Source: Sphingopyxis sp. (GTDB lineage Bacteria; Pseudomonadota; Alphaproteobacteria; Sphingomonadales; Sphingomonadaceae). Taken from it: a DNA stretch of 64,000 nt. Positions within the stretch are counted from its first letter, which is position 1. Each line of letters begins with the position of its first letter. Below are positions 29,142 through 47,245 of this stretch, in pieces. The notes below the pieces were generated by a model that saw only the letters and a list, made by a program, of their open reading frames with translations, did no database searches and was not told the DNA's origin. The DNA is taken from NCBI RefSeq assembly GCF_025869345.1, contig NZ_JAOZVW010000138.1:1-64000 (forward strand), written 5' to 3'. The position numbers and the translations under genes are program-made.

Positions 29142-29156
29142 TTTCATAATATGAAA
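29142..29156. promoter_or_regulatory. Candidate EctR operator palindrome
   Basis: TTTCATA-A-TATGAAA, a perfect 7-bp inverted repeat around one base, inside the AT-rich 219-nt gap between divergent ectA and ectR. A weaker, related ATCTTTCA...TGAAAAGAT repeat lies at about 29032-29053, nearer ectA. MarR proteins bind palindromes of this size. Position and symmetry support an EctR operator; binding is inferred. Confidence 0.6.
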
Positions 29157-29222: not shown

Positions 29223-29702
29223 ATGGAATCGGAGATAGCGAATGCGACGTTGAAGGCTCTGCGGCGCGTCTTGCGCGCTGCTGAAGGCGGCACCCGTCGC
29301 CTGGCCGCGACGACGGGGCTTACGCCTTCGCAATTGCTGGTGCTGCGCGAGATCGACGGCGGTGAAGACGTGACCCCGGGCGTCGTCGCCCAGCGCCTGC
29401 AATTCAGTCATGCGACGATCACGGCGATCGTGGATCGTCTCGTCGCTCTGCACCTCGTGACCCGCGCACGCAGCGATCGGGATAAACGGCGGATGCTGTT
29501 GGAGACGACTTCGGAAGGAAGGCGCCGCCTGGTGGAGGCGCCCGATATGCTGCAGGAAATATTCGGCGTCCGTTTCTCGGCGCTTCCTGCGTGGGAGCAG
29601 GCGATGATCCTGGCAGGCACGGAGCGATTGGCCGACATATTGGGTGCGGGGGATATGGATGCGGCGCCCTTGCTCGACGCGGGCGCAATAGATCGAACCT
29701 GA
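29223..29702 (+). CDS. ectR: MarR family regulator of ectoine genes
   Basis: 159 residues with a MarR winged helix (about 35-110): TGLTPSQLLVLREID, VVAQRLQFSHATITAIVDRLV and the wing RARSDRDKRRMLLE. A divergent MarR gene directly upstream of ectA is the classic arrangement of EctR, a repressor of osmotically induced ect operons. The symbol rests mainly on that context. The gene is convergent with the next cluster. Confidence 0.88.
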   Translation: MESEIANATLKALRRVLRAAEGGTRRLAATTGLTPSQLLVLREIDGGEDVTPGVVAQRLQFSHATITAIVDRLVALHLVTRARSDRDKRRMLLETTSEGRRRLVEAPDMLQEIFGVRFSALPAWEQAMILAGTERLADILGAGDMDAAPLLDAGAIDRT

Positions 29703-29810: not shown

Positions 29811-30599
29811 TCATGGAGCGAGGCCGTTTCGGTCCAGAAAGTCGAAGAGCGCCGCATTGAACGCATCGGCGACTTCGGCGAAGGGATAGTGGCCGGCATT
29901 TTCAAATATTCGGACCTTGGCGCCGGGGATCAGCGCCGCCGTCTGTTCGACGAGATGCGGCTGCGCCACCGGGTCGTGACGTCCGCCGACACAGAGTACT
30001 GGCACTTCCAGTGCCTGGACGACCGGCACGCCTTCATAGCGCTGGATTGCGAGCATTGCCTGGATGAAGGTTTCGCTCGGCGTCTTGCCGGCAATGTCGA
30101 GCACCAGATCGACGGCCGGACCGCTCGATGTGGGCGCGAACATCGATTTGAGCAGCGGCATGGCCGCCTCGGCGAGTGTTCTGACCTGCCGCAGCGGCGG
30201 AATGCGCTTTTCGATGAAGTCGCGGGCGAAGTCTTCGCCGCCCTGCGCCAGCGCGGCGATCGAAGCGGAAATGACGACGGCATGAATCCGGTCCGGGATC
30301 AATTGCGCGACCTTCGGCCCGACGATGCCGCCCATCGAATGGCCGATGATGATATTCTTTTCGGTGCCGAGCTCGGCGATCAGATGCGTCGCGCTTTCCG
30401 CGACCATCTCGATGCTGTAATCGGCGGGCAGCGGCGACAGGCCATATCCCGGCGCGTCCCAGGCGACGACGCGATAGCCCCGACCGACCAGCGCTGAAAT
30501 CTCATGAACCCAGTAATCCTTGGAACCATAGCCGCCGTGGAGCAGGAAGATGGTGATCGGACCATCGCCGATCTTCATATAGTCGGGCATGCGCATCAT
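29811..30599 (-). CDS. Alpha/beta hydrolase
   Basis: 262 residues from the ATG overlapping the MFS stop; the track ORF to 32624 is a run-on. The oxyanion HG dipeptide (FLLHGGYGS), nucleophile elbow GHSMGG (Ser about 88), acid in GGRHDPVAQ and histidine in ENAGHYPF form a complete triad. It resembles carbon-carbon bond hydrolases and esterases of aromatic pathways. It is the last gene of the unit CoA-transferase, MFS, hydrolase, and may hydrolyse a cleavage product in the MarR-controlled pathway. Substrate unknown. Confidence 0.88.
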   Translation of the reverse strand: MMRMPDYMKIGDGPITIFLLHGGYGSKDYWVHEISALVGRGYRVVAWDAPGYGLSPLPADYSIEMVAESATHLIAELGTEKNIIIGHSMGGIVGPKVAQLIPDRIHAVVISASIAALAQGGEDFARDFIEKRIPPLRQVRTLAEAAMPLLKSMFAPTSSGPAVDLVLDIAGKTPSETFIQAMLAIQRYEGVPVVQALEVPVLCVGGRHDPVAQPHLVEQTAALIPGAKVRIFENAGHYPFAEVADAFNAALFDFLDRNGLAP

Positions 30600-31948
30600 T
30601 CGGTCTCCTCGTTGTCGGAAGCGGGCTCGCGGGTGGCGAGCAGGAAGAACAGGCCGGCCACGGCGTAGAGGGCAAAGGCGATCGCGAAGGCGAGCTGGAG
30701 CCCAGTGAAGGACGCGGCGCGGCACGCGGCGTCGGCGATCGGGGCGCCGTGCCCCTCCGCCCCGGCGGCGCAGCGGGCGAAGCCCGCGCCCAGGGAGCGG
30801 GCGGCGAAATGGTCGCTTGCCCAGCCGATCAGCAGCGGGCCGAGCCCCAGCCCGATCAGGTTCATCGCCAACAGCAGCACCGCCGCGGCGCGGGCGCGCA
30901 TCCGCGCGGGAAAGCCGTTCTGCACCGCTCCCAGCGCCGGACCGATGTGCAGGTCGCGCAGGATGGTCGCCGCGACGACCAGCATCGCGACCGTGGGTAG
31001 CGAGGCGGAATAGACGGCGGCGATATAAAGCGGCGCGGCGGCCAACATCCCGAATCCCGGCACGATCAGGCGGTCGCGCCCGGTCCTCGCCGCTATCCGG
31101 TCGGTCACGACTCCGCCCAGACTGGTTCCCGCGAAAGACGCGAGGCCATAGATCACCCCATAGCCGAGCGCGGCCTGAAACAGGTTGAGGTCGGTGCCGC
31201 GCAACAGGAAGGGGATAGCGAACACGACCATGCCGAAGCCGACGAAGCCGCTGATCGTGTTGGCGATCAGGATATAGCGCAGCCGCCGGGTGCCCCAGAA
31301 ATGTCCAACGACCGCGGCGAGCGACGGCGCTTGCCGTTCCGGCGCGGCGCGCCCGGGGTCCGCGATCGTCAGGCGGATGAGCAGTGCCAGCAGGATGCCG
31401 GGAAGGCCGACGATCATGAACGCCGCGCGCCAGCCAAAATGATGCGCGATCCAGCCCCCTGCGACCGCGCCGAACAGCGCGCCGAGCGGGATGCCCAGCG
31501 AATAGATGCCATAGGCCGTGGCGCGACGTTCGGGTGGGAAATAGTCGGCGATCAGCGAATGGGCGGGCGGCGTGCAGCCTGCTTCGCCGACCCCTACGCC
31601 GACCCGCGCCAGGAAAAGCTGCGCAAAATTCTGCGCAAGTCCGCATAAGGCGGTCATCGCCGACCAGACGGCGATCGCGACCGAGATGATCGTCACACGG
31701 TCGCGGGTTTCGGCAAGCCGGGCGATCGGGATGCCGAGCGTGCAATAGAAGATCGAAAAAGCCAGTCCACTCATCAGCCCGACCTGGGCATCGCTGAGTT
31801 CCAACTCGGTCTTGATCGGTTCGGCGAGCGAGCCGATGATCGTTCGGTCGATGAAATTCAGCATGTAGGCGGCCATCAGCATCAGCAGCACGAAGCGGGC
31901 GCTCGGCCTGCGGCGCTGCGGCGCGGTTGCCCAGGGCCGGACGGTCAT
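30596..31948 (-). CDS. MFS transporter in MarR-controlled catabolic cluster
   Basis: 450 residues with 12 helices. The N-terminal AAYMLNFIDRTIIGSLAEPIK and GLAFSIFYCTLGIPIARLAE segments match the spinster-like/aromatic-acid-transporter branch of MFS proteins common in sphingomonad catabolic clusters. The ATG at 31948 overlaps the CoA-transferase stop, and its stop overlaps the hydrolase gene. It probably moves the substrate or a cleavage product across the inner membrane, complementing the outer-membrane TonB receptor at 37167. Confidence 0.9.
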   Translation of the reverse strand: MTVRPWATAPQRRRPSARFVLLMLMAAYMLNFIDRTIIGSLAEPIKTELELSDAQVGLMSGLAFSIFYCTLGIPIARLAETRDRVTIISVAIAVWSAMTALCGLAQNFAQLFLARVGVGVGEAGCTPPAHSLIADYFPPERRATAYGIYSLGIPLGALFGAVAGGWIAHHFGWRAAFMIVGLPGILLALLIRLTIADPGRAAPERQAPSLAAVVGHFWGTRRLRYILIANTISGFVGFGMVVFAIPFLLRGTDLNLFQAALGYGVIYGLASFAGTSLGGVVTDRIAARTGRDRLIVPGFGMLAAAPLYIAAVYSASLPTVAMLVVAATILRDLHIGPALGAVQNGFPARMRARAAAVLLLAMNLIGLGLGPLLIGWASDHFAARSLGAGFARCAAGAEGHGAPIADAACRAASFTGLQLAFAIAFALYAVAGLFFLLATREPASDNEETE

Positions 31949-33129
31949 GCCGGGGCTCCTTCGGAGGCGGGGATGATGCCGTCTTCGATCGCGGCGGCAA
32001 TGCGCTCGGCGGCGATACCGAAGTCGGCCAGAACCGCCGGGCCATGTTCGCCGATCGCCGGGGCATGGGCGAGCATGCCGACCTCCTGCCCCGGCACCTG
32101 GACGCGCGGCGTGTCGCCCAGCCCGGGCTGGGGATCGCGGCATATCCGCGAAAGCGCCTGAAAATGCGGATCGTCGAGCAGGTCGCGAAGGCTGTTGACC
32201 TTTGCCCCGACGATGCCCGCGCGGGCGAAATCCGCATCCCACGCCTCCGCCTCGCGCTCGGCGAGCGCGGCGATGATCGCCGCTTCGCAGGCGGCCCGAT
32301 GCCCGGCGCGCGCGGCGCGTGTGGTAAAGCGCGCATCGGCGGACCATTCGGGATGGCCGAGCGTCTGGGCGAGCAGGGCGAATTCACGGTCGTCCTTGAT
32401 GGCGAGGGCGACGAGTCCTTCCGCGGCGGGGAAAATCCCGGTTGGAACGCCCGCCGAACCGCCGGTCGCCGGCGGCAGCATCGCTGCTTCGGCCAGTTTG
32501 GGCGCCAGAAAGGCCGCGGCCGCCTCCAGCAGGCTGATGTCGATGCGCCGCCCCGTGCCGAAGCGGAAGCGCGCGAGCAGCGCGGTCGTCGCCGCCTGCG
32601 CGGCATAGAGGCCGGTGAGCACATCGACTGGAATATAGTCCATCAGCACCGGCGCGCCCTGTGCGTCGCGCGTCATGTCGAGCCAGCCGGCCTGCGCCTG
32701 GATCACCGTGTCGAGCGCCGGCCGGCCGGCGTGCGGACCGCGCGCGCCAAAGCCCGAGATCGCAAGATAGACGATATCCGGCCGGTCGCCGCGCAGCCTG
32801 TCATAACCCAGGCCGAGCCGATCCATGACGCCGGGGCGAAAGCTTTCGACGACGATGTCGCATTGTCGCGCCACATCGCGCGCCAGGGCTAGTCCGGCGG
32901 GTTGCTTAAGATCGATCGCGAGCGATTTCTTGCCGCGGTTGAAGGTCAGGAAGGGCAGGCCGACCGTCCCCGCCTTGCGCCCGATCATCCGTCCCCAGTC
33001 GCCCTGCAGCGGTTCGACCTTGATCACCTCGGCTCCCGCCAGGGCGAGGAGATGGGCGGCATAGGGGCCGGCGACCCCGGCGCTGGCGTCGAAGACGCGG
33101 ATTCCTTCCAGCGCCATTTTCGTCCCCAT
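31945..33129 (-). CDS. Class III (CaiB/BaiF) CoA-transferase
   Basis: 394 residues. Motifs of the formyl-CoA/CaiB family are present: GIRVFDASAGVAGPYAAHLLALAGAEVIKVEP at the start, FNRGKKSLAIDLK, and a candidate catalytic aspartate in DYIPVDVLTGLYAAQ (about 190-205). Such enzymes move CoA between carboxylic acids, activating a substrate for degradation. The start at 33129 (MGTKMALEGIRV) is preceded by GGGAG; the upstream track start is not credible. It heads the leftward unit, and operator copy 1 (33178) lies between it and the divergent NMO-family gene. Confidence 0.92.
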   Translation of the reverse strand: MGTKMALEGIRVFDASAGVAGPYAAHLLALAGAEVIKVEPLQGDWGRMIGRKAGTVGLPFLTFNRGKKSLAIDLKQPAGLALARDVARQCDIVVESFRPGVMDRLGLGYDRLRGDRPDIVYLAISGFGARGPHAGRPALDTVIQAQAGWLDMTRDAQGAPVLMDYIPVDVLTGLYAAQAATTALLARFRFGTGRRIDISLLEAAAAFLAPKLAEAAMLPPATGGSAGVPTGIFPAAEGLVALAIKDDREFALLAQTLGHPEWSADARFTTRAARAGHRAACEAAIIAALAEREAEAWDADFARAGIVGAKVNSLRDLLDDPHFQALSRICRDPQPGLGDTPRVQVPGQEVGMLAHAPAIGEHGPAVLADFGIAAERIAAAIEDGIIPASEGAPA

Positions 33130-33177
33130 GCCTATCTCCCTTTTTGCAAAATCGGCTTGCCTTGACGATCTTTTTAA

Positions 33178-33189
33178 TTGATCAATCAA
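33178..33189. promoter_or_regulatory. Candidate MarR operator, copy 1
   Basis: TTGATCAATCAA, an inverted repeat TTGAT-CA-ATCAA, in the 86-nt gap between the divergent CoA-transferase and NMO-family genes. The identical 12-mer recurs at 36554 and, inverted, at 37103. With flanks, copies 1 and 3 share 17 bases (ATTGATCAATCAATAAT). Confidence 0.75.
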
Positions 33190-33215
33190 TAATGTCGAGA
33201 GCAAAAGGAAACACC

Positions 33216-34250
33216 ATGGCCGTAAATCCATCCGAAACGCTTGTCGCGACGCTGAAACTGCCCGTTTGCGCCGCGCCGATGTTTCTCGTCTCAGGCCCCG
33301 AACTGGTGCTTGCCGCCTGCCGCGCGGGCGTACTCGGCGCCTTTCCTACCCCCAATGCGCGTAGCATCGACGATCTGGCGAACTGGTTGGAGCGTATCGG
33401 CGCGGGCGTTGCGGCGATCGAGGCGGAGACGGGGCGCGCGCCGCCATGGGCCGCCAACCTCGTCACCCATTCGACCAATGCCCGCCTGCCGGATGATCTG
33501 GCGCTGATCGCGCACCATCGGCCGCCGGTGGTCATCACCGCGCTCGGCAGCCCCAAGCGCGCGCTCGATACGGTACATGGCTATGGTGGGCTGGTGCTCG
33601 CCGACGTCACGTCGCTGGCGCTGGCGCGAAAGGCGATCGCCGCGGGGGTCGATGGCCTGGTCTGCGTCTGCGCGGGCGCCGGCGGCCACACGGGCAGCCT
33701 GTCGCCCTTTGCCTTCATTTCCGCCGTGCGCGCCGAGTTCGACGGGTTGATCGTCGCGGGCGGCGGCATCGCCGACGGATGGGGCGTCGCGGGCGCGATC
33801 GCGGCGGGTGCGGACATCGCCTATGTCGGCACCCGCTTCATCCCGGCGTTCGAGAGCGGGGCCGACCCTCTGCATAAAGGCTATGTGATTTCCGAAGCGA
33901 TCGACGGGCTGATCGTCAGCGACGCGATCAGCGGCGCGCCGGCATCGTGGATCAAGGCCAGCCTTCGGGCCGCAGGCATCGACCCCGACGCCCTGAAGCC
34001 CGGAAGCACCGCGAAGGACTATGACTCGGCAAAGGGAGGCGAAAAGAAACGATGGAAGGAAATCTTCGCCGCCGGACAGGGCATCGGGCGGTCGCGCGTC
34101 GAACAGTCGGTGGACGAGGTCGTCGCGGAACTCGACGCCGAATATCGCCAGGCGCGTGATCGCTTCGCCGGCCTGGGCAAGGCGTGGGAGGCGCCGGCGC
34201 TCGTTGCGGATGCCGAGGTCGATCTGGGCGCCGCAGCCATCTCGCCATGA
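33216..34250 (+). CDS. Nitronate monooxygenase / NPD family flavoenzyme
   Basis: 344 residues, FMN-dependent TIM barrel. N-terminal PVCAAPMFLVSGPELVLAACRAG, the active-site VCAGAGGHTGSLSPF with its histidine, GGGIADG and the FMN phosphate motif AYVGTRF are visible. Members oxidise nitronates, but many in catabolic clusters act on other substrates or as enoyl reductase-like flavoenzymes. The ATG at 33216 has AAAGGAAA upstream. It is divergent from the CoA-transferase across operator copy 1 and the only rightward gene before the MarR gene. Confidence 0.88.
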   Translation: MAVNPSETLVATLKLPVCAAPMFLVSGPELVLAACRAGVLGAFPTPNARSIDDLANWLERIGAGVAAIEAETGRAPPWAANLVTHSTNARLPDDLALIAHHRPPVVITALGSPKRALDTVHGYGGLVLADVTSLALARKAIAAGVDGLVCVCAGAGGHTGSLSPFAFISAVRAEFDGLIVAGGGIADGWGVAGAIAAGADIAYVGTRFIPAFESGADPLHKGYVISEAIDGLIVSDAISGAPASWIKASLRAAGIDPDALKPGSTAKDYDSAKGGEKKRWKEIFAAGQGIGRSRVEQSVDEVVAELDAEYRQARDRFAGLGKAWEAPALVADAEVDLGAAAISP

Positions 34251-34295
34251 CCGATGCGGTGCGACGGCGTTCGCGTCCCGCGAGGCTGCCCCGGA

Positions 34296-34985
34296 TCAGT
34301 TGTCGAGCATCCAGTGCGACAGCAGGTCGGCCATCGCCCGCGGCCGCTCCATCGGCAGCAGGTGGCCCGCACCGGCGACGACATGGGTGCGTGCGCTGCC
34401 GACCAGTTCCTCCATCCGCGCGCGCGGCGTCAGCGGGTCGGCTTCGCCCGCCATCAAGATGAGCGGGCCGTCGAAACTCGCCAGCCGGTCTGTGCGGTCG
34501 GGGCGCGCCATCGCCGCAGCGCTATGGGCGATGAAGCGGCCGGCGCCATAATCCGCCACCATCGCCGCGCGGCGGGCCATCAGATCGGCGTTCGCAATAC
34601 TGTCGGGGTGAAAGGCGGCGGTGGCGTTCGCCTGCACCATCGCTTCATATCCGCCGCTGCGCGCGGTCGCGATCGCCCGTTCGCGGTTGTCGCGCCCCGC
34701 ATCGCCGTCCGCACCCGGCAGCGATCCGGCCAGCGCGAGGCCGGCAATGCGGTCTGGCGCGCGTGCCAGCATCGCCAGCGCGACATAGCCGCCGAAGGAG
34801 AAGCCGCAGAGGTGGAAGCGTCCGGGCAGGCCCGCGAGCAGATGATCCGCCAGCGCGTCGACCCGGTCGAGCGCCGGCAGCGTCGGCGCGCGCGCGTCGA
34901 TGCGCGGATCGATCGCTGCGACGACATCCGCGAAGACCGCGCCCGTATTGTTGAGGCCGGGCAGGAGGAGGAGCGGCCGGGTCAT
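34296..34985 (-). CDS. Alpha/beta hydrolase
   Basis: 229 residues, starting at the ATG that overlaps the dioxygenase stop; the long track ORF is a run-on. The fold begins with LLLLPGLNNTGAVF, and the nucleophile is in CGFSFGGYVA (Ser in G-F-S-F-G). The acid lies in AGEADPLTP and the histidine in GAGHLLPMERP. The oxyanion region reads LPGLN rather than HG. Translational coupling to the carotenoid-oxygenase-family gene suggests it works on the same compound, for example on an ester of substrate or product. Confidence 0.86.
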   Translation of the reverse strand: MTRPLLLLPGLNNTGAVFADVVAAIDPRIDARAPTLPALDRVDALADHLLAGLPGRFHLCGFSFGGYVALAMLARAPDRIAGLALAGSLPGADGDAGRDNRERAIATARSGGYEAMVQANATAAFHPDSIANADLMARRAAMVADYGAGRFIAHSAAAMARPDRTDRLASFDGPLILMAGEADPLTPRARMEELVGSARTHVVAGAGHLLPMERPRAMADLLSHWMLDN

Positions 34986-36481
34986 GCGGCCGGGCGCTCT
35001 CCAGCCAGCCGATCGGCCTCGACCCAGCAGGCGTGCGTGCCGACCGACAGGCGTTCGGGAAGGATCACCGTCGCGATCGGCCCCTTGTCGATCTGCTTTG
35101 CATCGAAGACCAGCAGTTCCGACCGGTCGGCATCCATGTCGGCGACCATCGACAGCAGATAACCGTCGTCCTCGTCGACCGCGCCCTCGCGGCGGGCCAT
35201 CTGCGGCTCGCTGCCGAACCGGCCCGGACCATATTCGAACCGCTGCTGCGCCCCGGTTTCGAGGTCGTATTTCTTGAGTCCGCCGAACAGCCAATGGCCC
35301 GGAACATACAGGACATTATAGCTGTAGCGATAGCGCGCCGCGGCATAATCGTTGCTGACTACCGGGAACTCGCTGACCTCGTCGTCGATATATTGCTCGC
35401 GTGTCTGGCCGGTCTTCAGATTGAAGCGCCAGCGGTGCATCAGCGTCTTGTTGTTATGCTTGTCGAGGTTCGCGCGGATACGTTCATAAACTGCTTCGCG
35501 TCCGCCCTGATGCTCGCCCACAGGGATCATCTTGTAATCAGGCATGATGCAGCCATCCATCACCACCTCGTCACCGTCCTCATAGCAATTGGAGAGATGC
35601 AAGATGTAGCAACTCGATCCTTCGAACCAGCGAATGTCGGTTCCCTTGCCGAAGCGCGGGATGATACCGAAACGCGCCGGCAGGTCGCGGTTGAACTGCA
35701 GCTTGTGCTCGCCGCGTTTGAGGCCCTCGGGCTCGAAGAACAGGGGCAGGTCATGCAGGATCGAATAGTTGGCGGTGATCCCCATGTCGTGGGGCCAGCG
35801 CGCGCCGGGCAGTTCGATCGGCGTGAAGTTAACCAGCCGGTTGTTCCGGTCGATCACCCCGTAATTCATATAGGGGGGATGTTCGGGGAAGTTGAAGAAC
35901 ATCATGTCGCCGGTGGCCGTATCGACCTTGAAATGCGGGCCAACGCCGTCGCGGACGAGGCGCGACCAGTCGGGATCGGCGCCCAGCGTTTCCAGCGTCT
36001 CGGGGTCGAGGCGCCATGCCTCGCTGCCCTGGCCCATGCAGGCGAGCAGCTTGCCGTTGTGCGCGATCACGTCGGTGCCGGCATTATCCTTCATCGCTCC
36101 GATCGCCCCCCACCCGCGGCGCGACGCCTTCGCCGGCTCGAGCAGGCCCGGCCAGAGCGAGCGGCCCGCCGCCTGCTCGGCAAGGAAGCCGGTCGTCTGC
36201 ACGAACCGGTTGCGAAAGCGGGCGCGTCCGTCGTCGAACTGCACAGATGCCAGCATGCCGTCGCCATCGAAGGGGTGATAAAGCCCAAGCGGCTCATGCA
36301 CCTGATTATGTGCATTGCGAATGAAAACGCCGTTCAGGTCGCGCGGAATCTCCCCGACGACCTTCAGGTCGCCGTAATCGGATGTCCATTGCCGCGACGT
36401 GGGGCGGAAGGGGCCTTTCAGGAACGGATTGTCGTTGTCGGGCGCGACGGTCAGCGTGACGTCGTCATTATGGTGCAGCAT
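34982..36481 (-). CDS. Carotenoid oxygenase family dioxygenase (lignostilbene-dioxygenase-like)
   Basis: 499-residue Fe(II) enzyme of the family that splits carbon-carbon double bonds of carotenoids, apocarotenoids or stilbenoids into two carbonyl products. The start motif GVFIRNAHNQVHEPLGLYHPFDGDGM is typical. Four candidate iron-ligand histidines are seen in VGPHFKVD (about 182), RWPHDMGIT (about 231), CYILHLSNCYEDGDE (about 294) and VGTHACWVEAD (about 482). Sphingomonads use this family for lignin-derived stilbenes, but the substrate here cannot be assigned. It is divergent from the MarR gene across operator copy 2. Confidence 0.92.
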   Translation of the reverse strand: MLHHNDDVTLTVAPDNDNPFLKGPFRPTSRQWTSDYGDLKVVGEIPRDLNGVFIRNAHNQVHEPLGLYHPFDGDGMLASVQFDDGRARFRNRFVQTTGFLAEQAAGRSLWPGLLEPAKASRRGWGAIGAMKDNAGTDVIAHNGKLLACMGQGSEAWRLDPETLETLGADPDWSRLVRDGVGPHFKVDTATGDMMFFNFPEHPPYMNYGVIDRNNRLVNFTPIELPGARWPHDMGITANYSILHDLPLFFEPEGLKRGEHKLQFNRDLPARFGIIPRFGKGTDIRWFEGSSCYILHLSNCYEDGDEVVMDGCIMPDYKMIPVGEHQGGREAVYERIRANLDKHNNKTLMHRWRFNLKTGQTREQYIDDEVSEFPVVSNDYAAARYRYSYNVLYVPGHWLFGGLKKYDLETGAQQRFEYGPGRFGSEPQMARREGAVDEDDGYLLSMVADMDADRSELLVFDAKQIDKGPIATVILPERLSVGTHACWVEADRLAGERPAA

Positions 36482-36553
36482 CGCCTTTTCCCTTTATGCT
36501 CTTCTCTCGACTGGCCGCTACTATCCGTGCATAGAAGGCAAGAGTCAAGATCG

Positions 36554-36565
36554 TTGATCAATCAA
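36554..36565. promoter_or_regulatory. Candidate MarR operator, copy 2
   Basis: TTGATCAATCAA, identical to copy 1, in the gap between the divergent dioxygenase and MarR genes and only about 20-30 bases from the MarR start codon. Occupancy would be expected to repress both directions. Confidence 0.75.
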
Positions 36566-36584
36566 ATAAATGGGATGTGATGCC

Positions 36585-37058
36585 ATGCCGAAGCAAAGTG
36601 GAAAAAAAGGCGAAGAAAAGGGGCTGCGCTCGCTCGACCTGCCCGAACCGCGCGATTTCATCCCGCGGCTGATCCGCGCGCACAACAATCTGATCAATGC
36701 CTTTGAAAAGCTCTGCGGCATCCACATGGCGCGCTGGCGCCTGCTCTTCAATCTCGCCCGGCGGGGCAGTTCGTCGCAGAACGACCTGTCGCGGTCGACG
36801 ACGATGGCTCCCGCCGCGGTTACGCGGATTCTGGCGGATATGGAACGTCAGCAGCTCATCCGCCGCAAACCGTCGGCGCAGGACAGCCGCCAGATGATCG
36901 TCGAACTGACTCCGGCGGGCGAGCAACTGGTGATGGAAACGGCGGTGAAGCGCGAACAGTTTCTGCAACAGGCGCTGGCCGGATTCAGCGATGCCGAAAT
37001 CATCCTGCTCGAACGGCTTCTCGGCGATCTGGAAACCAATCTCGGCGCGGCGCGATAG
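36585..37058 (+). CDS. MarR family transcriptional regulator of the dioxygenase cluster
   Basis: 157 residues from ATG 36585 (GGGA nine bases upstream); the in-frame ATG at 36570 adds five residues. The winged helix (about 55-125) shows LFNLARRGSSSQNDLSRSTTMAPAAV, VTRILADMERQQLI and the wing basic pair in RRKPSAQDSRQMIV. Helices at both ends form the dimer. It sits between two of the three operator copies. MarR proteins usually act as ligand-released repressors, so the inducer is likely a pathway substrate or CoA thioester. Confidence 0.92.
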   Translation: MPKQSGKKGEEKGLRSLDLPEPRDFIPRLIRAHNNLINAFEKLCGIHMARWRLLFNLARRGSSSQNDLSRSTTMAPAAVTRILADMERQQLIRRKPSAQDSRQMIVELTPAGEQLVMETAVKREQFLQQALAGFSDAEIILLERLLGDLETNLGAAR

Positions 37059-37102
37059 GCATTTCGGTTCGCGGGAATTGACAGGGTTTCCTCTCCATAT
37101 TA

Positions 37103-37114
37103 TTGATTGATCAA
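37103..37114. promoter_or_regulatory. Candidate MarR operator, copy 3 (inverted)
   Basis: TTGATTGATCAA, the reverse complement of copies 1 and 2, 53 bases upstream of the TonB receptor start and downstream of the MarR stop. The longer ATTATTGATTGATCAAT here is the exact complement of the 17 bases around copy 1. Confidence 0.75.
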
Positions 37115-37166
37115 TGATAGGTCGGTCGAATCGGCAACAGCCGGGATAAATGGGGAGGTTTCGTTC

Positions 37167-39506
37167 ATGCGCAGCAAGTTTTTGTTCACCTTGGGGGCAA
37201 GTGTCTGTGCCCTGTCGGCTGCATCCGCCAACGCCGAGGACGGGGCAGCGACGGCTGCCGCCGACCCCGCGCCTGCTGCCGCCGATACCGATGCGGGCGA
37301 TGCGATCGTCGTGACCGCCCGGCGCCGCGAAGAAAATGCGCAGGACGTTCCCGTCGCGGTGACGGCGTTGTCGGGTGGCGCCTTGCAGGCTCGCGGCATC
37401 GTGCGTAGCGACGATCTTCAGTTCGCGGTGCCGGCGCTGCGCATCTCGCCACAGATCAGTCCCGCCACCCCCAGCTTCGTGATCCGGGGGCAGGGGCGCG
37501 GCCTGTTCCAGGGCGCGCTGCCCGCCGTCGTCACCTATTTCGCCGACGTTCCATTGCCCCAGGATGGGAGCATCGTGTCGCTTTACGATCTTCAGTCGGT
37601 GCAGGTGCTGAAGGGGCCGCAGGGCACGCTGTTCGGCCGCAACACGACCGGCGGGGCGATCCTGCTGACGCCGACCCGGCCCAAAACGACCCAAGCGGAA
37701 GGCTATGTCGAGGCGAGCATCGGCAATTATGACGCGCGATCGCTGACGCTGGCGGCCAATGTTCCGTTGATCACCGACAAGCTGGCGGTGCGCGTCGTCA
37801 ACGACTTCGTCCGGCGGGACGGCTTCGTCAAGGATATCGGCGGCGGGCCGGCGCTGGGCAGCAAGCACAGCGATTCGGCGCGTCTGTCGGTTCTCGCGAC
37901 CCCGACCGAAACATTCGAAAATCTGCTGATCGTCGATATCTCGCGGACCGACGAGACGGGCCCCGCGATCGTTCCGACCGGCGTTTTCACCGATGCCGCG
38001 GGCAATCCCGAGGGCAGGGCGGCGGCGGCCGGCAACTATCCCTTCTTCTTCGGCGGAACGCTGGCGAACGATGTGCGCCTGCAACTGGAGCGCGTTCGGG
38101 CGCTTGGCGGCATTCTGGCGGCCGATCCGGGCGTGCAGGGCAGCTATCGCGCCCGAAGCTGGGGGGTCGTCAACACGACGAGGCTCGACCTTGGCGACAT
38201 CACGCTCAAGAATATCTTCGGCTATCGCAATGCCAAGGTCTTCAACCAGTTCGACGTCGACGGGCTGCCCGCCAGCATCAACGACCGCATTAACGGCTAT
38301 GGCGCCTTTCCACAGGTCGCGGTGGACGCCGTCACCAACGAGTTCCAGATTCTGGGCGGTCTCTTGGACAAGCAGCTCGAATTCGTCGTCGGGGCTTTCT
38401 ATCTCAATGAGGGGCCGACGGGCGAATCGGGCAGCCAGGCGCTGCAATTCTTTCATGCCGGATCACCGGCGCCGGTCGTTCAAAACGCCTATATCCGCGA
38501 CAAGAGCAAGGCGCTGTTCGCGCAGGCAACCTGGCATTTCCGAGGCGCGCTGGAGGGGTTGAACCTGACCGGAGGCTATCGCCACACATGGGACAACCGC
38601 AGCTTCTGTGCCATTCAGCAAACGCAGTCGGTGGGTCCCGATCAATGCGCCGGGATCGAACGCAAGACTCGCTTCAACGCGCCGGGATATACGCTGTCGC
38701 TGGATTATCATGTCGCCGATCGCGTTCTGCTCTATGCCGCGCATCGTCGTGGTTTCCGTGGCGGCGGCGTCAATACCAACGTCCCCGCCAACCTGATTCA
38801 GGGAAGCTATGCGCCCGAAACCGTCACCGACTATGAAGGCGGGATCAAGTCCGACTGGCGCGTCGGCGGCATGACCGGTCGCTTCAACTTTTCCTATTTC
38901 CGGGCGAACATCTCCGATTTCCAGGCCTCCGCCGTGGCCGCGCTGCCGCTGCCCGGCGGCGGGACGCTGAACTCGTCGATCGTCGCTAACGCGGCCAAGG
39001 CACACACCGAAGGTTTCGAGGCCGAGTTGGCGATAACCCCCGTCCGCGGCCTGACCTTCACCGCCAACTATGAACGTTTCAAGGGGCGGTTCGACAAATT
39101 CGACGGACCGCCGGGCTTCCCGGCGGGCGATCTGCTCAGCTACCAGTTCAATACGCCGAAATACACGCTCAATCTCAATGGTCGTTACGACATCGATTTG
39201 CCGGCGGGATTGGGGGATCGGATCGGCCTGTCGGTGAATCTCTATCGCCGGTCGCGGACCTTGATTTCGACGACTCAAGGGCTTCCCAACCAGTATAACA
39301 TGGAACCCGCATTCAACGTGGTCGACCTCCGCGCGGAATGGAAGCGTGTTGCCGATACGCCGGTCGATGCTGCGCTGTTCGTGAAGAACGTCGGCGATAC
39401 GCGCTATCGTGTCGGGATGTCGAACAGTGCTTCGGTCTTTTCGCTGGCGACATCCTTCTACGGCGACCCTCGCACCTATGGTCTACAACTGCGCTATTCG
39501 TTCTGA
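37167..39506 (+). CDS. TonB-dependent receptor of the MarR cluster
   Basis: 779-residue outer-membrane active transporter. Signal peptide MRSKFLFTLGASVCALSAASANA is preceded by GGGGAGG. The TonB-box-like DAIVVTARRREENAQDVPVAV leads into the plug (about 45-165) with VQVLKGPQGTLFGRNTTGGAI, followed by the 22-strand barrel and an aromatic C terminus (LQLRYSF). The plug resembles the group of sphingomonad receptors often linked with aromatic or terpenoid uptake. Operator copy 3 places it in the MarR regulon. Confidence 0.95.
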   Translation: MRSKFLFTLGASVCALSAASANAEDGAATAAADPAPAAADTDAGDAIVVTARRREENAQDVPVAVTALSGGALQARGIVRSDDLQFAVPALRISPQISPATPSFVIRGQGRGLFQGALPAVVTYFADVPLPQDGSIVSLYDLQSVQVLKGPQGTLFGRNTTGGAILLTPTRPKTTQAEGYVEASIGNYDARSLTLAANVPLITDKLAVRVVNDFVRRDGFVKDIGGGPALGSKHSDSARLSVLATPTETFENLLIVDISRTDETGPAIVPTGVFTDAAGNPEGRAAAAGNYPFFFGGTLANDVRLQLERVRALGGILAADPGVQGSYRARSWGVVNTTRLDLGDITLKNIFGYRNAKVFNQFDVDGLPASINDRINGYGAFPQVAVDAVTNEFQILGGLLDKQLEFVVGAFYLNEGPTGESGSQALQFFHAGSPAPVVQNAYIRDKSKALFAQATWHFRGALEGLNLTGGYRHTWDNRSFCAIQQTQSVGPDQCAGIERKTRFNAPGYTLSLDYHVADRVLLYAAHRRGFRGGGVNTNVPANLIQGSYAPETVTDYEGGIKSDWRVGGMTGRFNFSYFRANISDFQASAVAALPLPGGGTLNSSIVANAAKAHTEGFEAELAITPVRGLTFTANYERFKGRFDKFDGPPGFPAGDLLSYQFNTPKYTLNLNGRYDIDLPAGLGDRIGLSVNLYRRSRTLISTTQGLPNQYNMEPAFNVVDLRAEWKRVADTPVDAALFVKNVGDTRYRVGMSNSASVFSLATSFYGDPRTYGLQLRYSF

Positions 39507-39739: not shown

Positions 39740-40714
39740 TTAGGTTGAGCCCAGTCTATTCCGCACGGCTTCGGCCTGCGCCATGATATTCTTGACCAGT
39801 TCGGCGCAGGTCGGGATGTCGTGGATCAGCGCCTGGCTCTGGCCGCTTGTCCAGATGCCGCCGTCGACGTCGCCGTCGCGCAGCACATTTTCGCGCCCGC
39901 GGACGCCCGCCATCAGGTGACGGACATCGTCGAAGGTCTTGGTCGGATCACGCTGGATCGCCGCGACCTCGTCCGACACCGCGTTCTTCGCAACGCGCGC
40001 GGTGTTGCGCAAGCTGCGGCCCACGAGGACGGTGTCGAGTTCGCTCGCATCGACGATGCGCTGCTTCACATTCTGGTGGATTGTCGCTTCGACGGTGGCG
40101 CAGAAGCGCGTGCCCATATTGACCGCATCGGCGCCGAGCGCGAGCGCGGCGACCAAGCTGCGCCCATCGGCCATGCCACCCGACGCAATGATCGGCACAT
40201 CGGGAAGCGCATCGACCGTCGCGGGCAGCAGCACGACGAGCCCGACATCGTCCTCGCCGGGGTGACCCGCGCATTCGAAGCCGTCGATGCTGATCATGTC
40301 GACGCCCTTCTTCACCGCCGACACCGAGTGGCGCACCGAGGTGCATTTGTGGATGACGGTGACGTCGGCTTCCTTGAAGCGCGGCAGATGATCGGTCGGC
40401 GCACGGCCCGCGGTCTCGACGATCTTGATCCCGCTGGCGATGATCGCCTCGCGATATTCGTCATAGGGGATAGGGTTGATCGATGGCAGCAGGGTGAGGT
40501 TCACGCCAAAGGGCTTGTCGGTCAGCTTGCGCGTCGCCTCGATCTCGTCGAACAGCGCTTGGCCGGTCGGATACATATGCGCGGTGATGAAGCCGAGCGC
40601 CCCCGCATTGGCGACCGCGGCGACCAGCGGACCATAGCCCACGCCGGTCATCCCGCCCATGATGATCGGGGTATCGATGCCGAACTTCTCGGTAATGCGC
40701 GTCTTTATGGCCAT
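39740..40714 (-). CDS. Nitronate monooxygenase / NPD family flavoenzyme
   Basis: 324-residue FMN enzyme, different from the one at 33216. N-terminal DTPIIMGGMTGVGYGPLVAAVANAG, active-site DGFECAGHPGEDDVG, ASGGMADGRSL and NMGTRFCATVEA are present. Preceded by GAAGGGAAATAGC. It is the last gene of the TetR-linked operon, 61 bases after the SnoaL-like gene. In comparable acyl-CoA degradation clusters such proteins have been proposed to act as enoyl-type oxidoreductases; the actual reaction is unknown. Confidence 0.9.
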   Translation of the reverse strand: MAIKTRITEKFGIDTPIIMGGMTGVGYGPLVAAVANAGALGFITAHMYPTGQALFDEIEATRKLTDKPFGVNLTLLPSINPIPYDEYREAIIASGIKIVETAGRAPTDHLPRFKEADVTVIHKCTSVRHSVSAVKKGVDMISIDGFECAGHPGEDDVGLVVLLPATVDALPDVPIIASGGMADGRSLVAALALGADAVNMGTRFCATVEATIHQNVKQRIVDASELDTVLVGRSLRNTARVAKNAVSDEVAAIQRDPTKTFDDVRHLMAGVRGRENVLRDGDVDGGIWTSGQSQALIHDIPTCAELVKNIMAQAEAVRNRLGST

Positions 40715-40775
40715 TGCCGCTATTTCCCTTCTTCATTCTGTACTGTACCGGAACGCAGCTTCGCGCCATTTGCGA

Positions 40776-41324
40776 TTAAGCCGATGCGGGTTTCGCTTTG
40801 CCCATGAGAGACAGCAGATAGGCTCCCCCAATGTGGCCGTTTCGCGCCGGCAACATATCGAACTGACGCATCATCTCTGTAATCTCATATTGCGCCATGT
40901 AATCGGACAACCGCCCGTCGCGAAAGCCGAGAAAGATGTCGCAGCCGTAGGTCGTTGCCTTGGTACCCTTGCCCGAGGCGGGCGGCGCGGTGGCCGTCTG
41001 TTCGAACAGGTAGAGCGCGCGCCCGGCATCGGGCGCGCTGAAGAACTGCACTTCGCGGAAATGCACGTCGGGCATAACTGCCCAGATCTTGTCGACATAG
41101 GCGCGCATCGCGTCATGGCCGTGGATGATCTCTGGCCAGAATATCGTGTCGTTCCAGCGGATGTCGGGGTGGATCAGCGCCATGACCTCATCGGTGTCGT
41201 GCGAATTCCAAGCGGCTTCCCAGCGGCTACCGAAATCGCGGAAAAATTCGGCGGTGACGATGTCGGCGGTGGGCAATCCGACATAGGTCTGGCCGATCGC
41301 ATCGGCGGTGTCGTGTGCAGGCAT
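40776..41324 (-). CDS. SnoaL-like / NTF2-fold protein
   Basis: 182 residues with the cone-shaped NTF2-like fold signature: FGSRWEAAWNSHDTDEVMALIHPDIRWNDTIF (helix-turn then strand), HGHDAMRAYVDKIWAVMPDVHFR and a C-terminal sheet region. Such small proteins act as isomerases, cyclases or hydratases, or only bind ligands. GGAGAAGAG precedes the ATG. Its place between a thioesterase gene and a flavoenzyme gene suggests a role in the same pathway; chemistry cannot be read from sequence. Confidence 0.82.
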   Translation of the reverse strand: MPAHDTADAIGQTYVGLPTADIVTAEFFRDFGSRWEAAWNSHDTDEVMALIHPDIRWNDTIFWPEIIHGHDAMRAYVDKIWAVMPDVHFREVQFFSAPDAGRALYLFEQTATAPPASGKGTKATTYGCDIFLGFRDGRLSDYMAQYEITEMMRQFDMLPARNGHIGGAYLLSLMGKAKPASA

Positions 41325-41343
41325 AGGCTCTTCTCCGTGGCGG

Positions 41344-41781
41344 TCAGGGGGCGATCGGCGCCGGCCGTGGCTGTTTGAACAAGGCGGTGGCCCGGGCGAT
41401 CCGACCGGGCGATCCCACGACCGATCCGGTCACAAACATCAGGCTGCGCGTCGTGTGCTCGAGCGTAACGCGGCTTTCGATCCAGTCGCCCTGCGGCGCG
41501 CCCTGAAGAAAGTCGATGCTGAGATTGATCGTCGGGCCGCCCCAGTCGTGACCGCAAATCTCGATCGCACAGACGCCGAGCGCGATATCGAGAAAGGTCG
41601 ACAGCAGGCCGCCATGGCAGAAGCCGAGGCGGTTGCACTGGTGCGCCTGCACCTCCATCCCGAAGCGGACCGGCTCTTCGGCGTTGCCCGTATAGAGCAT
41701 CTGCATGCCGCCGACATGCTCGCAAAAGGGATCGCTGAAATTCAGCGGACTCCAATCGCCGGCTGTTCGCTGTCGCATCAT
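41344..41781 (-). CDS. PaaI-type hot-dog acyl-CoA thioesterase
   Basis: 145 residues. The hot-dog core is clear in HQCNRLGFCHGGLLSTFLDIALGVCA, with the HGG turn and the following acidic residue typical of PaaI-like thioesterases. It starts at the ATG overlapping the ligase stop. In catabolic operons such enzymes release CoA from dead-end intermediates, so it may rescue CoA in this pathway. Confidence 0.9.
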   Translation of the reverse strand: MMRQRTAGDWSPLNFSDPFCEHVGGMQMLYTGNAEEPVRFGMEVQAHQCNRLGFCHGGLLSTFLDIALGVCAIEICGHDWGGPTINLSIDFLQGAPQGDWIESRVTLEHTTRSLMFVTGSVVGSPGRIARATALFKQPRPAPIAP

Positions 41782-43592
41782 CCGGACTCCACCAGATTGC
41801 TGGCGGCTTGCCGGAACGACATCACGGCAGCGTCAGGGCGGTCCGCATAGAGGCGCTCGACGTCGGCGGTGCGCCTTTCGCGCACTACGCGCTGCGCCAC
41901 ATTGCCCTTTACGGTCACCTCGCCGGTTTCGAACGACGCCGGCTCATCGAGGATCAGCGCCGCGCCGATCCGACGCGCAGCGCCGCTCTGGGCCGCGTTG
42001 AACGCCGTGATTGCCTGTTCGATCCGCGCGCGCAGTTTGGGCGCCTTGTCCGGTGTGCGGAGCCAGAGCAAGGCCGACGGATATGGCCGGTTGAGACCGC
42101 AAATGACCGCATCGGATACATGCTCGCCGCATGCCGCCAACAGCGCCAGCCGCAGCGCCTCAACGGTAACATAGGTGCCGGAATCAAGCTTGAAATCTTC
42201 CGAAAGGCGGCCCGCGAAGACGAGCCCGGCGCGCGGGTCGTCGGGGGCGGCGAAGCGGACGGCGTCGCCGGTATGGAAATATCCTTCGTCGTCGAACAGC
42301 GACGCCGAGGCTTCGGGCGCGCCGACGTAGCCGCTTCGTGGCATCATCGTCGGTCCCTTGACCCGCATCTCGTATCGCCCATCGAACGGAACGAGCTTGA
42401 GGTCGGTGGCGGGCAGGGGAAGCCCGATCACGTCGGTCCCGCCTTCGGTCCAGTATTTCAGCGTCCCGAACAGATATTCGGTCGCGCCATAGAAGGAGAA
42501 GATCGGCACAGCCTTGCCGCGCGCGGTGATCGACAGCGCGACCAGCCGGTCGCGGACATCTTCGGCGAGCACCGCACCGCCGAAGCCGAGGAATTTGAGG
42601 CGCGAGAAGAAATGGCGGCTGAGCTCGGCATCGACCTCGAGCGCTTGGCACAGCATCGTGTAGCCCAGCGGTACGGTAATGAAATAGGATGGCGCGACGT
42701 CGCGCAGATTTTCGAGCGTCTTTGCAAACAGCCCGGGGGTCGGCTTGCCGTCGTCGATCCACACTGTGCCCCCGGCGGCGATCGTGTTGTTGAAGTTGAA
42801 GTTGCCCGCCATGATGTGGCTGAACGGCATAGCTTCGAGGATCTGCGGCGGATCGTCGCCGAAGTCGAGCAGGCCGAGGGCCCGGTTCTGCGCGATGGTG
42901 ATGTTGAGATTGGCGTGCGGCTGTGGTGTCGCCTTCGGCGACCCGGTCGATCCTGATGTGTAGATGATCCGCGCGATATCGCCGGGGAGGATCGCCTCCA
43001 TCCGCTCGGTCACGTCATGACGGGGCGGTGTTGCAATAACCTCGGCCCAGGATGTGATGGCGAGCCCGTCGACCGTGCCCGATACCGCGACGATCGTTAC
43101 CCCGAGTGGTGCGAGCGCGCGCAGTGCTGCGGCATAGCGCGCTGCATCGTCGACGACGACGACCTTCGCGCCGACTACCGAGACGCATTGGCGGAGCTGG
43201 GCATGATCTTTCGACATCAGCGAATAGGCGACGCTGACGGGCGCGATCGCTGCGCCGCTGCGCTGGACGCCAATGGCGGCGATGCCATGCTCGATCGACG
43301 GTTCGGACAGGAAGGAGACGACGTCGCCGACGCCAATCCCCTGGTCGATCAGCCATTGCGCCAGACCATCGGCGGCGCGGCGTGCCTCACCATAAGATAT
43401 GCTTCGCCATGCGCTGCTCGCTTCGCGCTGGCGCATGAAGGGTGCGTCGGGCGCGCGCTCGGCCTGTTCGTCGAAGACGTGCGCGAGCGATTTGGGGACC
43501 GGGCCGAGCGGCAGGCCGGAACGCAGGATGATGCTGCCGTCGTCGCGGCGGTCGAGCGTCACGCTGGGGGCAGGGGGACTCGCAAACTCCAT
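41778..43592 (-). CDS. AMP-binding acyl-CoA ligase (feruloyl-CoA synthetase-like)
   Basis: 604 residues. Activates a carboxylic acid to its CoA thioester via an acyl-adenylate. P-loop motif IIYTSGSTGSPKATP (about 212-226; the usual G after PK is A), adenine motif SFYGATEY, ribose aspartate in YFHTGDAVRF, and a candidate C-terminal catalytic lysine in GEVTVKGNVAQR are present. Overall it is closest to feruloyl-CoA synthetase-type ligases, so an aromatic or cyclic acid substrate is plausible. It is immediately preceded by the SDR gene with no gap. Confidence 0.9.
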   Translation of the reverse strand: MEFASPPAPSVTLDRRDDGSIILRSGLPLGPVPKSLAHVFDEQAERAPDAPFMRQREASSAWRSISYGEARRAADGLAQWLIDQGIGVGDVVSFLSEPSIEHGIAAIGVQRSGAAIAPVSVAYSLMSKDHAQLRQCVSVVGAKVVVVDDAARYAAALRALAPLGVTIVAVSGTVDGLAITSWAEVIATPPRHDVTERMEAILPGDIARIIYTSGSTGSPKATPQPHANLNITIAQNRALGLLDFGDDPPQILEAMPFSHIMAGNFNFNNTIAAGGTVWIDDGKPTPGLFAKTLENLRDVAPSYFITVPLGYTMLCQALEVDAELSRHFFSRLKFLGFGGAVLAEDVRDRLVALSITARGKAVPIFSFYGATEYLFGTLKYWTEGGTDVIGLPLPATDLKLVPFDGRYEMRVKGPTMMPRSGYVGAPEASASLFDDEGYFHTGDAVRFAAPDDPRAGLVFAGRLSEDFKLDSGTYVTVEALRLALLAACGEHVSDAVICGLNRPYPSALLWLRTPDKAPKLRARIEQAITAFNAAQSGAARRIGAALILDEPASFETGEVTVKGNVAQRVVRERRTADVERLYADRPDAAVMSFRQAASNLVESG

Positions 43593-44450
43593 TCAGGCCA
43601 TCCTGTACATTGTCCGCGGATCGCCAAGCGCGGCGCCCAGCGAATCGGCGGTCGTTTCCGGCAGATCGAATTCGGAACCGAATGGCGCCGCTGTCATCCG
43701 GTCGCCTGCCGATCGCTGCCAGCGCATCTGCGCGCCCCAGCCGCCGCCGCACTCGACGATCTCGCCGGTCCGCGTCGATCCAGGGTCGAGCAGTGCCATC
43801 AGAAAGGGCGAAATCTGTTCGGGACGCAAGCAATGCTTCATACGGTCGGAAAAGACGCCGTCGGTCATTTCGGTCAGCGCCATCGGGGCGATGGCGTTGG
43901 CGCGGATGCCGAGCCGTTCCCCTTCGATGGCCAGCGTCTTCATCAGGCCAATGATACCGCTTTTCGCCGCCGCATAATTGGCCTGCCCGAAGGCGCCGTG
44001 CATCCCCGCACCTGAAGTGGTGAACACGATCGAGCCGCGCCCTTGTGTCGTCATCGGTTCCCATACCGCCTTGGCGCAGGCGAAGCTGCCGCCGAGATGG
44101 ACGTCGATCACCTCCGACCATTCCTCTGCCGTCATCTTTGCGAAGCTGCGGTCGCGGACCACGCCCGCGTTGATCACCAGCCCGTCGATCGAACCATATT
44201 CGGCGAGCGCGGCTTCGACGAAGGGTGCGGGATCGCGGATGTCGCACCGGATCGCGATCGCAATGCCTCCCTCCCGCCGGATCGTTTCGGCAGCGGTTGC
44301 GACGTCTTCGCCGCGTCCGGTCAGGACAAGCCGTGCGCCGGCGCGGGCGAGGTCAGCGGCATATTGCCGCCCGAGCCCGCGGCTTGCGCCGACGATCACG
44401 ACGACCGATCCTTCGAGACCGGCGGAGGCGAAGGAAGGAGAGCCCGTCAT
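43593..44450 (-). CDS. SDR family 3-hydroxyacyl-CoA dehydrogenase-like protein
   Basis: 285 residues. NAD(P)-binding motif VGASRGLG (a TGxxxGxG variant), NAG in LVINAGVVRDRSF, the catalytic tyrosine/lysine in NYAAAKSGIIG and the active-site serine region FTTSGAGMHGAFG are intact. The C-terminal GGGWGAQMRWQRSAG resembles the dehydrogenase part of multifunctional enzyme type 2 (17-beta-HSD4). It probably oxidises a 3-hydroxyacyl-CoA in this beta-oxidation-like operon. The start at 44450 is chosen over the longer track ORF, which overlaps the crotonase gene. Confidence 0.9.
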   Translation of the reverse strand: MTGSPSFASAGLEGSVVVIVGASRGLGRQYAADLARAGARLVLTGRGEDVATAAETIRREGGIAIAIRCDIRDPAPFVEAALAEYGSIDGLVINAGVVRDRSFAKMTAEEWSEVIDVHLGGSFACAKAVWEPMTTQGRGSIVFTTSGAGMHGAFGQANYAAAKSGIIGLMKTLAIEGERLGIRANAIAPMALTEMTDGVFSDRMKHCLRPEQISPFLMALLDPGSTRTGEIVECGGGWGAQMRWQRSAGDRMTAAPFGSEFDLPETTADSLGAALGDPRTMYRMA

Positions 44451-44460
44451 CGGTCGCGTA

Positions 44461-45228
44461 TCAGCGTGTTCCCGATCCGACCTTGGCGCGTGCGGCCAGC
44501 ATGCGGTCCGAAATTTCCGGATTCCAGTGGACGTCGCGATACTGGACGTGGCCGTAGACATAGGCCGCCATCGGATCCATCGCCCAGCTACGGCGCAGCA
44601 TTTCGGTTGTGCGTACGACGGTCGGCACGGTCGTCGAGGCGATCTCGCCGGCCATCGCTTGCGCCGTCGCGAGCAGTTTGCCTTCGGGCGCGATCTCGTC
44701 GATCAGGCCGATGCGCAGCGCTTCCTGCGCATCGATACGACGCCCGGTGAGCACGAGCAGCTTCGCCTGGCTCTGCCCGACGATGCGCTGCAGCGGATCG
44801 ACGAAGGGGGTCAGGCCGAAGCGGATCTGCGGAAAGCCGAATTTGGCGTTGGGGCTCGAAATGCGGATGTCGCAGAAGACCGCGATGTCGCAGCCGCCGC
44901 CGAAGGTCGGCCCCGCGACCGCGGCGATCGTCGGCTTGGGATATTCGAGCAGTTCGAGATAGCCGTAATAGGTCGCATCATACCAGCGCAGCCGCTCATC
45001 TTCGCTTTTCCAGTTCATGGTGTCGAGATCGAGCCCGGCGGAGAAATATTCCTCGGTTCCGGTGATGACGACCGCCGCGACGCTGTCGTCACGCCGCCAT
45101 TGCTGGAGCGTTTCGACGAGGTCTTCGAACAATTCGGTGCTGAGTGCATTCTTCTTGTCGGGGCGGTCGAGGAAGATGGTGGCGACGCCGCCCTTTACCT
45201 CGCTGCGCATCGTGCCGTGCTTTGCCAT
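44461..45228 (-). CDS. Crotonase-family protein lacking hydratase glutamates (first)
   Basis: 255 residues, enoyl-CoA hydratase/isomerase fold. The CoA-binding and oxyanion parts are good (ALSTELFEDLVETLQQW, GTEEYFSAGLDLDTM, AGPTFGGGCDIAVFCDIR). The two catalytic glutamates of classical hydratases are not where expected: FGFPQIRFGL has Gln in the PE position, and GQSQAKLLVLTG has Leu in the second. It may therefore be an isomerase, hydrolase or ring-opening enzyme. AGGAGTGAATAT precedes the ATG. Confidence 0.88.
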   Translation of the reverse strand: MAKHGTMRSEVKGGVATIFLDRPDKKNALSTELFEDLVETLQQWRRDDSVAAVVITGTEEYFSAGLDLDTMNWKSEDERLRWYDATYYGYLELLEYPKPTIAAVAGPTFGGGCDIAVFCDIRISSPNAKFGFPQIRFGLTPFVDPLQRIVGQSQAKLLVLTGRRIDAQEALRIGLIDEIAPEGKLLATAQAMAGEIASTTVPTVVRTTEMLRRSWAMDPMAAYVYGHVQYRDVHWNPEISDRMLAARAKVGSGTR

Positions 45229-45258
45229 ATATTCACTCCTGGGTTTCGGGATTTCGGA

Positions 45259-46422: not shown

Positions 46423-47213
46423 GGCTTTCCGGCGCGTTCGATTGCAACCGGGTCACCGGACTTCAACCGGTTGAAGCCGCGTGAAATGCGCTCGCGGAAG
46501 ATGCCGCGCTGGAGCAGGTCGTGCGTGACCGTCAGCTCATATTGCAGCGCACCGAGATGATCCATGTTCGAGGCGCGCAGCGCGACGCCTTTGAAGATCT
46601 TGGCCAGTTCGGGGCCCATTTCGGCAATCTGCTTTGCGAGCGTCAGCGACCGCGACCGAAGTTCACCGACCGGCGTCACTTCGCTGACGAGGCCGATCCG
46701 CAGAGCTTCCTGCGCGTCAATCGGGTCGCCGGTATAATAGAGGCGGCGGGCATGCTGCTTGCCGACGCGCGACATGATGCCGTGATAAAAGCCGTTCATC
46801 GCATATTTGACCTGCGTCGATCCGAAGAGCGCGTTTTCCGACGCGACGGTGATGTCGCACATATTGGCGACATCCATGCCGTAACCGGGGGCGACCCCCG
46901 CGACCGCCGCGACCGACGGTTTGCCGAAATCATAGATCGCCTTCATCAGCGCGAGCGCGAGGTCGTTGAAGCGGCGGCGGTCGTCGTCGCCCGCCGTATT
47001 GAGGATGTCGACGCGCCAGCCGGCGCAGAAATAGTCCTCGTTGCCGATGAATAGCACGCACGACACGGCGTCATCGTCTTCCCAGGCGCGCAGCGCGGCG
47101 ATGATGTCCTCGTGCAATTCCCAGCCGAGCGCGTTGCGCACCTCGGGGTGGTCGAGCTGAAGAATGCCGACGCCGTCCTCGACGCTGGTGTTCAGATAAC
47201 GGAAGTCGGTCAT
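46419..47213 (-). CDS. Crotonase-family protein lacking hydratase glutamates (second)
   Basis: 264 residues; first gene of the operon. Crotonase features include ALGWELHEDIIAALRAW, GNEDYFCAGWRVDIL and VAGVAPGYGMDVANMCDI. As in the other copy, the classical hydratase pair is absent: FGSTQVKYAM replaces the PE motif and ARRLYYTGDPID lacks the second glutamate. The oxyanion region PGYGMD also differs from the usual GGGxE. It shares only modest similarity with the 44461 protein, so it is unlikely to be a recent duplicate. The TetR-type palindrome at 47228 lies 15 bases upstream. Confidence 0.88.
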   Translation of the reverse strand: MTDFRYLNTSVEDGVGILQLDHPEVRNALGWELHEDIIAALRAWEDDDAVSCVLFIGNEDYFCAGWRVDILNTAGDDDRRRFNDLALALMKAIYDFGKPSVAAVAGVAPGYGMDVANMCDITVASENALFGSTQVKYAMNGFYHGIMSRVGKQHARRLYYTGDPIDAQEALRIGLVSEVTPVGELRSRSLTLAKQIAEMGPELAKIFKGVALRASNMDHLGALQYELTVTHDLLQRGIFRERISRGFNRLKSGDPVAIERAGKP

Positions 47214-47227
47214 CGCTAATCCTATTA

Positions 47228-47245
47228 TTACCTACTGGTCGGTAA
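47228..47245. promoter_or_regulatory. Candidate TetR operator upstream of acyl-CoA operon
   Basis: TTACCTACTGGTCGGTAA, an 18-bp imperfect palindrome directly upstream of the first operon gene. It matches the palindrome at 48125 apart from a few positions; the joint consensus is TTACCGACCGGTCGGTAA. Confidence 0.75.

Follow-up and report, generated by a model that had tools for sequence, protein, structure and literature searches.

MarR proteins typically bind a palindrome as dimers, control divergent genes as well as their own gene, and are released by early intermediates of a pathway (PMC5487221). The closest described systems are the MarR-type repressors of aromatic catabolism such as HcaR, CouR and HpaR, and the locus studied here is like them in having a local MarR gene beside catabolic genes, a divergent target operon and palindromic operators in the gaps between genes. 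Its CoA-transferase and CoA-ligase genes would also suit a regulator that an early, CoA-linked intermediate releases, which is what was reported for HcaR (PMC5487221). It is unlike these systems in its operator sequence and its target genes, and its MarR reached 59.8 bits against the HpaR equivalog model (TIGR02337), where the cut-off is 121.2. The SlyA operator TTAGCAAGCTAA, as quoted in PMC8070244, has the same geometry, a 12-bp palindrome of the form 5-N2-5, but its half-site is TTAGC rather than the TTGAT found here, where the regulon is local and covers three gaps; the MarR scored 45.6 bits against the SlyA equivalog model (NF002926), with a cut-off of 120. The sphingomonad lignostilbene dioxygenase systems also use an oxygenase of the RPE65/CCD type, and lignostilbene dioxygenase (LSD) isozyme I aligns with the present enzyme over its full length (189 bits), but the Tyr-101/Lys-134 pair is replaced here and the NCBIfam LSD score is 241, below the cut-off of 800. 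In its type the system is ordinary, a familiar local MarR regulon and no new kind of control. Searches of the literature with the 12-base repeat described below returned unrelated papers only, and no paper was found that ties this gene set to a MarR.

The window analysed is a stretch of 64,000 nucleotides from Sphingopyxis sp. (contig NZ_JAOZVW010000138.1), and the genes and candidate operators of the cluster are collected in the table. The regulator scored above the cut-off for both MarR families (PF01047, 42.8 bits, cut-off 24.6; PF12802, 43.1 bits, cut-off 27), and the RPE65/carotenoid-cleavage domain spans the full length of the dioxygenase, which places it in that superfamily. Judging from their close spacing on the same strand, the MFS transporter and the second hydrolase are apparently co-transcribed behind the CoA-transferase.

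Table. Genes of the catabolic cluster and candidate operators, in window coordinates
Feature	Position	Strand	Basis or remark
MFS transporter and second alpha/beta hydrolase	29811..31947	-	translations only
Family III CoA-transferase	31945..33129	-	Pfam CoA_transf_3, 327 bits
Candidate operator S1	33175..33192	+	TAATTGATCAATCAATAA; CoA-transferase/NMO divergent gap
NMO-family flavoenzyme	33216..34250	+	Pfam NMO, 97.8 bits
Alpha/beta hydrolase, downstream of dioxygenase	34296..34985	-	Pfam Abhydrolase_6
RPE65/carotenoid-cleavage-family dioxygenase	34982..36481	-	PF03055 (RPE65), 409.5 bits, residues 27-487
Candidate operator S2	36551..36568	+	TCGTTGATCAATCAAATA; dioxygenase/MarR divergent gap
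MarR-family regulator, proposed binder of S1-S3	36585..37058	+	157 aa; Pfam MarR
Candidate operator S3	37100..37117	-	TCATTGATCAATCAATAA on minus strand; MarR/TonB-receptor gap
TonB-dependent receptor	37167..39506	+	Pfam Plug

A sequence-only reading of this locus had proposed that one inverted repeat, placed at three promoters, defines a MarR regulon. The repeat TTGATCAATCAA was found where that reading had put it, on the plus strand at 33178-33189 and 36554-36565 and as its reverse complement at 37103-37114, and the first and third copies do share 17 bases, ATTGATCAATCAATAAT. All three copies lie in short intergenic regions as claimed, namely the CoA-transferase/NMO gap (33130-33215), the dioxygenase/MarR gap (36482-36584) and the MarR/TonB-receptor gap (37059-37166). 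A further match with one mismatch, at 33174, overlaps the first copy and is part of that site. The palindrome is very probably a switch bound by the cluster's own MarR, as judged from sequence comparison, and the findings below were used to evaluate that reading.

The dioxygenase was used as a query against about 85,000 genomes, which gave 80 loci. The best of these was in Sphingobium jiangsuense (L005), where the gene order is identical and the dioxygenase is 90%, the NMO 80%, the MarR 78%, the CoA-transferase 75% and the TonB receptor 66% identical. The two sphingomonad MarRs show no difference in the recognition-helix stretch APAAVTRILADMERQ. S. jiangsuense has the repeat in the same three gaps, and each copy points the same way with respect to its genes; S1 corresponds to L005:11255, S2 to L005:7919 and S3 to L005:7368. 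When each gap was aligned with its counterpart, the longest identical run was the site plus one flanking base, 13 bp in all, within an overall identity of 60-76%. A fourth copy lies at L005:2580-2591, 96 bp before the ATG (2676) of an SDR gene with an aldehyde dehydrogenase gene behind it, which suggests that the pathway has further steps.

A more distant pairing was found in Rhizobiales bacterium 62-17 (L021), where the MarR beside the dioxygenase is just 38% identical and the gap between the two genes holds TTGATCTATCAA and TTGATAAATCAA, with 15 bp between them. The operator is thus kept together with the regulator elsewhere, at three orthologous sites in S. jiangsuense and at two in the Rhizobiales genome, and S2 has the position expected of a local regulator's palindrome, between marR and its divergent target.

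With these sites aligned, conservation extends over 18 bp, and the operator reads as the palindrome T-N2-TTGAT-N2-ATCAA-N2-A. The core TTGAT-N2-ATCAA of the earlier description is therefore present, but its 12 bp are too short for a conserved operator of at least 18 bp. The T at -3 and the A at +14, which fall outside the 12-mer, are invariant and symmetric in 7/7 sphingomonad sites, and this outer pair is also kept in the two Rhizobiales sites. The flanks of the sphingomonad sites are A/T-rich. All seven sphingomonad sites have CA as their central dinucleotide, and the two Rhizobiales ones have CT and AA. At each of the seven the CA center also keeps its direction with respect to the genes; with its center constant and its orientation conserved, the operator is not fully symmetric. 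Genome-wide, every match to the 18-bp pattern falls within the cluster (3/3 in this genome, 4/4 in S. jiangsuense and 2/2 in Rhizobiales 62-17). The pattern eliminates all unrelated core matches in the latter two genomes; in S. jiangsuense (4.8 Mb), four of the five core matches fall in the orthologous cluster.

The sites were then placed against predicted promoters. These promoters are consensus matches, and a shuffle control yields about as many promoter-like sites, and conservation across species is better support for the assignments than the generic scan. The predicted CoA-transferase promoter, TCGACA-N16-TAAAAA (TCGACA-N17-TAAAAT in S. jiangsuense), has S1 within its spacer, and S3 overlaps the -10 element of the predicted TonB-receptor promoter TTGACA-N17-TATTGA, of which the -35 element is conserved and the -10 element reads TATGTT in S. 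jiangsuense. A repressor that acts by occlusion would suit both placements. S2 precedes the marR ATG by about 20 bp, which fits autorepression of marR, and, on the upstream side of the predicted dioxygenase promoter TTGACT-N17-GATAGT (GATAAT in S. jiangsuense), it stops 5 bp short of the conserved -35 box. At the dioxygenase gene its effect could be either activation or repression. For NMO and marR, the predicted promoters are weak and lack conservation.

Altogether, an autoregulating, ligand-released MarR repressor acting over three gaps and about five promoters is, on sequence grounds, the model that we consider highly likely. A dimer of the MarR would bind the 18-bp palindrome in the three gaps and repress its own gene and the divergent dioxygenase-hydrolase operon, and it would also repress the TonB receptor gene, the CoA-transferase operon (with the MFS transporter and hydrolase genes) and the NMO gene. 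A substrate or intermediate of the pathway would then free the MarR and turn the entire cluster on. What we infer is that the cluster MarR is the protein that binds, that it represses, that a ligand releases it and that the genes serve one pathway.

The same MarR might act on the same sites as an activator, or in a dual role, at some promoters, and at that of the dioxygenase above all. Some MarR proteins do activate, and PA3458 appears to do both (PMC8070244); the position of S2 just upstream of a -35 box is conserved in both species and would suit this. However, S1 and S3 fall within or across elements of predicted promoters, and S2 is also close enough to the marR start codon to fit autorepression, so that this version appears unlikely beside simple repression.

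It is far less probable still that another regulator binds the sites, such as the product of a second MarR gene in the window (29223-29702). That gene lies at a distance of 3.5 kb, and many MarR proteins have TTGA/TCAA half-sites, but upstream of it the motif is missing and a different palindrome, TTTCATAATATGAAA, stands at 29142-29156. In S. jiangsuense the 63% homologue of this gene is on a different contig, again without the motif upstream, and the sites track the cluster MarR instead. The second MarR gene adjoins ectB/ectA-like genes of the ectoine type. TTTCATAATATGAAA is possibly its own operator; the palindrome is absent upstream of the 63% homologue (L111).

How closely sites and cluster MarR go together was seen within the genus. 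The cluster MarR was found in none of the 79 other genus genomes and so in 1/80 overall, and in no genome but the one that has it does the extended site occur more than once. The 18-bp pattern is present as a single copy in five of the other 79 genomes and absent from 74, and the 12-mer occurs 0-2 times per genome in the 35 other genus genomes scanned for it. One identical 18-mer that fits the operator pattern, TGATTGATAAATCAAGCA, was seen once each in G597, G590, G124, G408 and G588, genus members without the MarR.

The exact site was absent from the other MarR-dioxygenase clusters (L006, L007, L011, L012, L014, L016-L019, L024, L050, L096), and the MarR-like neighbors at dioxygenase clusters without it are 30-38% identical, which counts against the model. 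No close MarR turned up in plasmid collections, where the best is 33% identical and comes from Cupriavidus basilensis, beside a 69% dioxygenase. Searches at the level of genus and family gave no further genome with the MarR, and an order-level search gave one partial homologue (38%) without the site. The 44-51% dioxygenase homologues in other genomes of the family are probably paralogues, and the 11 of them that were retrieved have neither the MarR nor the sites. At two dioxygenase clusters, CAATCATTG is seen twice per gap upstream of more distantly related MarR genes (L050, about 6900-6960; L096, about 9168-9318). It may be a drifted operator having the half-site ATTG(AT) alone in common, and was dropped as operator evidence as too weak.

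Within the present genome, TTGATNNATCAA has exactly three copies in the whole 3,996,317 bases, all three inside the cluster, and the 4.0-Mb scan found none outside it. Allowing one mismatch gave 13 more scattered matches besides the one overlapping S1, so that the exact sites stand out. Under a first-order (dinucleotide) model of the window (65% GC), 1.8 core matches are expected per genome and 0.0018 in the 3.9-kb interval that holds three. This agrees with the earlier statement that the set is very unlikely to have arisen by chance, and the finding that would have spoken against the proposed regulon, a 12-mer that is common and randomly placed, was not what the scan returned. AT-rich words are likelier in AT-rich promoter DNA, but with that expectation, no copy elsewhere, flanks that are unlike each other and position and orientation conserved in a second species, there is next to no likelihood that the copies arose by chance or form a dispersed repeat with no regulatory role. 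The proposed MarR regulon is supported by the confinement of all three genome sites to the cluster and by their conserved position and orientation in S. jiangsuense, and further by the 38% identical MarR with its two sites and by the near-absence of the operator from sister genomes that lack the MarR.

The enzymes have a wider distribution than this control. Many of the 80 loci have an alpha/beta hydrolase close to the dioxygenase, the NMO gene adjoins the dioxygenase also in Pigmentiphaga and other Burkholderiales, and these carry the dioxygenase-hydrolase-CoA-transferase-NMO run without the cluster MarR, so the enzymes move together as a set and are regulated differently from place to place.

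Among solved structures, the dioxygenase is closest to carotenoid 9,10-dioxygenases (237 bits), followed by lignostilbene dioxygenase I. In lignostilbene dioxygenase the Tyr-101/Lys-134 pair binds the 4-hydroxyl of the stilbene (PMC8191317). The residues aligned with this pair are Leu and Gly, with no Tyr or Lys nearby, and a 4-hydroxystilbene substrate is therefore not favored. Tentatively, and at somewhat less than even likelihood, the operator set could mark out all the genes of a catabolic pathway not yet described. There, a CCD-family oxygenase of non-lignostilbene type would split a C=C bond of a substrate imported by the TonB receptor, the fragments would pass to the SDR and aldehyde dehydrogenase (part of the regulon in S. 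jiangsuense), the hydrolase, the CoA-transferase and the NMO-type flavoenzyme, and one MarR would sense an intermediate.

Here a probable regulator-operator pair with a sharply bounded regulon was obtained from sequence alone. The regulon groups the genes of an uncharacterized catabolic cluster that is common to sphingomonads and, in part, Burkholderiales, and release from the operator would offer a direct assay route to the substrate.

Beyond the TonB receptor, a minus-strand run at 39740-48072 of the window encodes enoyl-CoA hydratases, an acyl-CoA dehydrogenase, an SDR, an acyl-CoA ligase, a thioesterase, a SnoaL-like protein and a second NMO. With a TetR-type gene and a divergent TonB receptor gene at its head and no copy of the operator, it looks like an independently regulated degradation operon.
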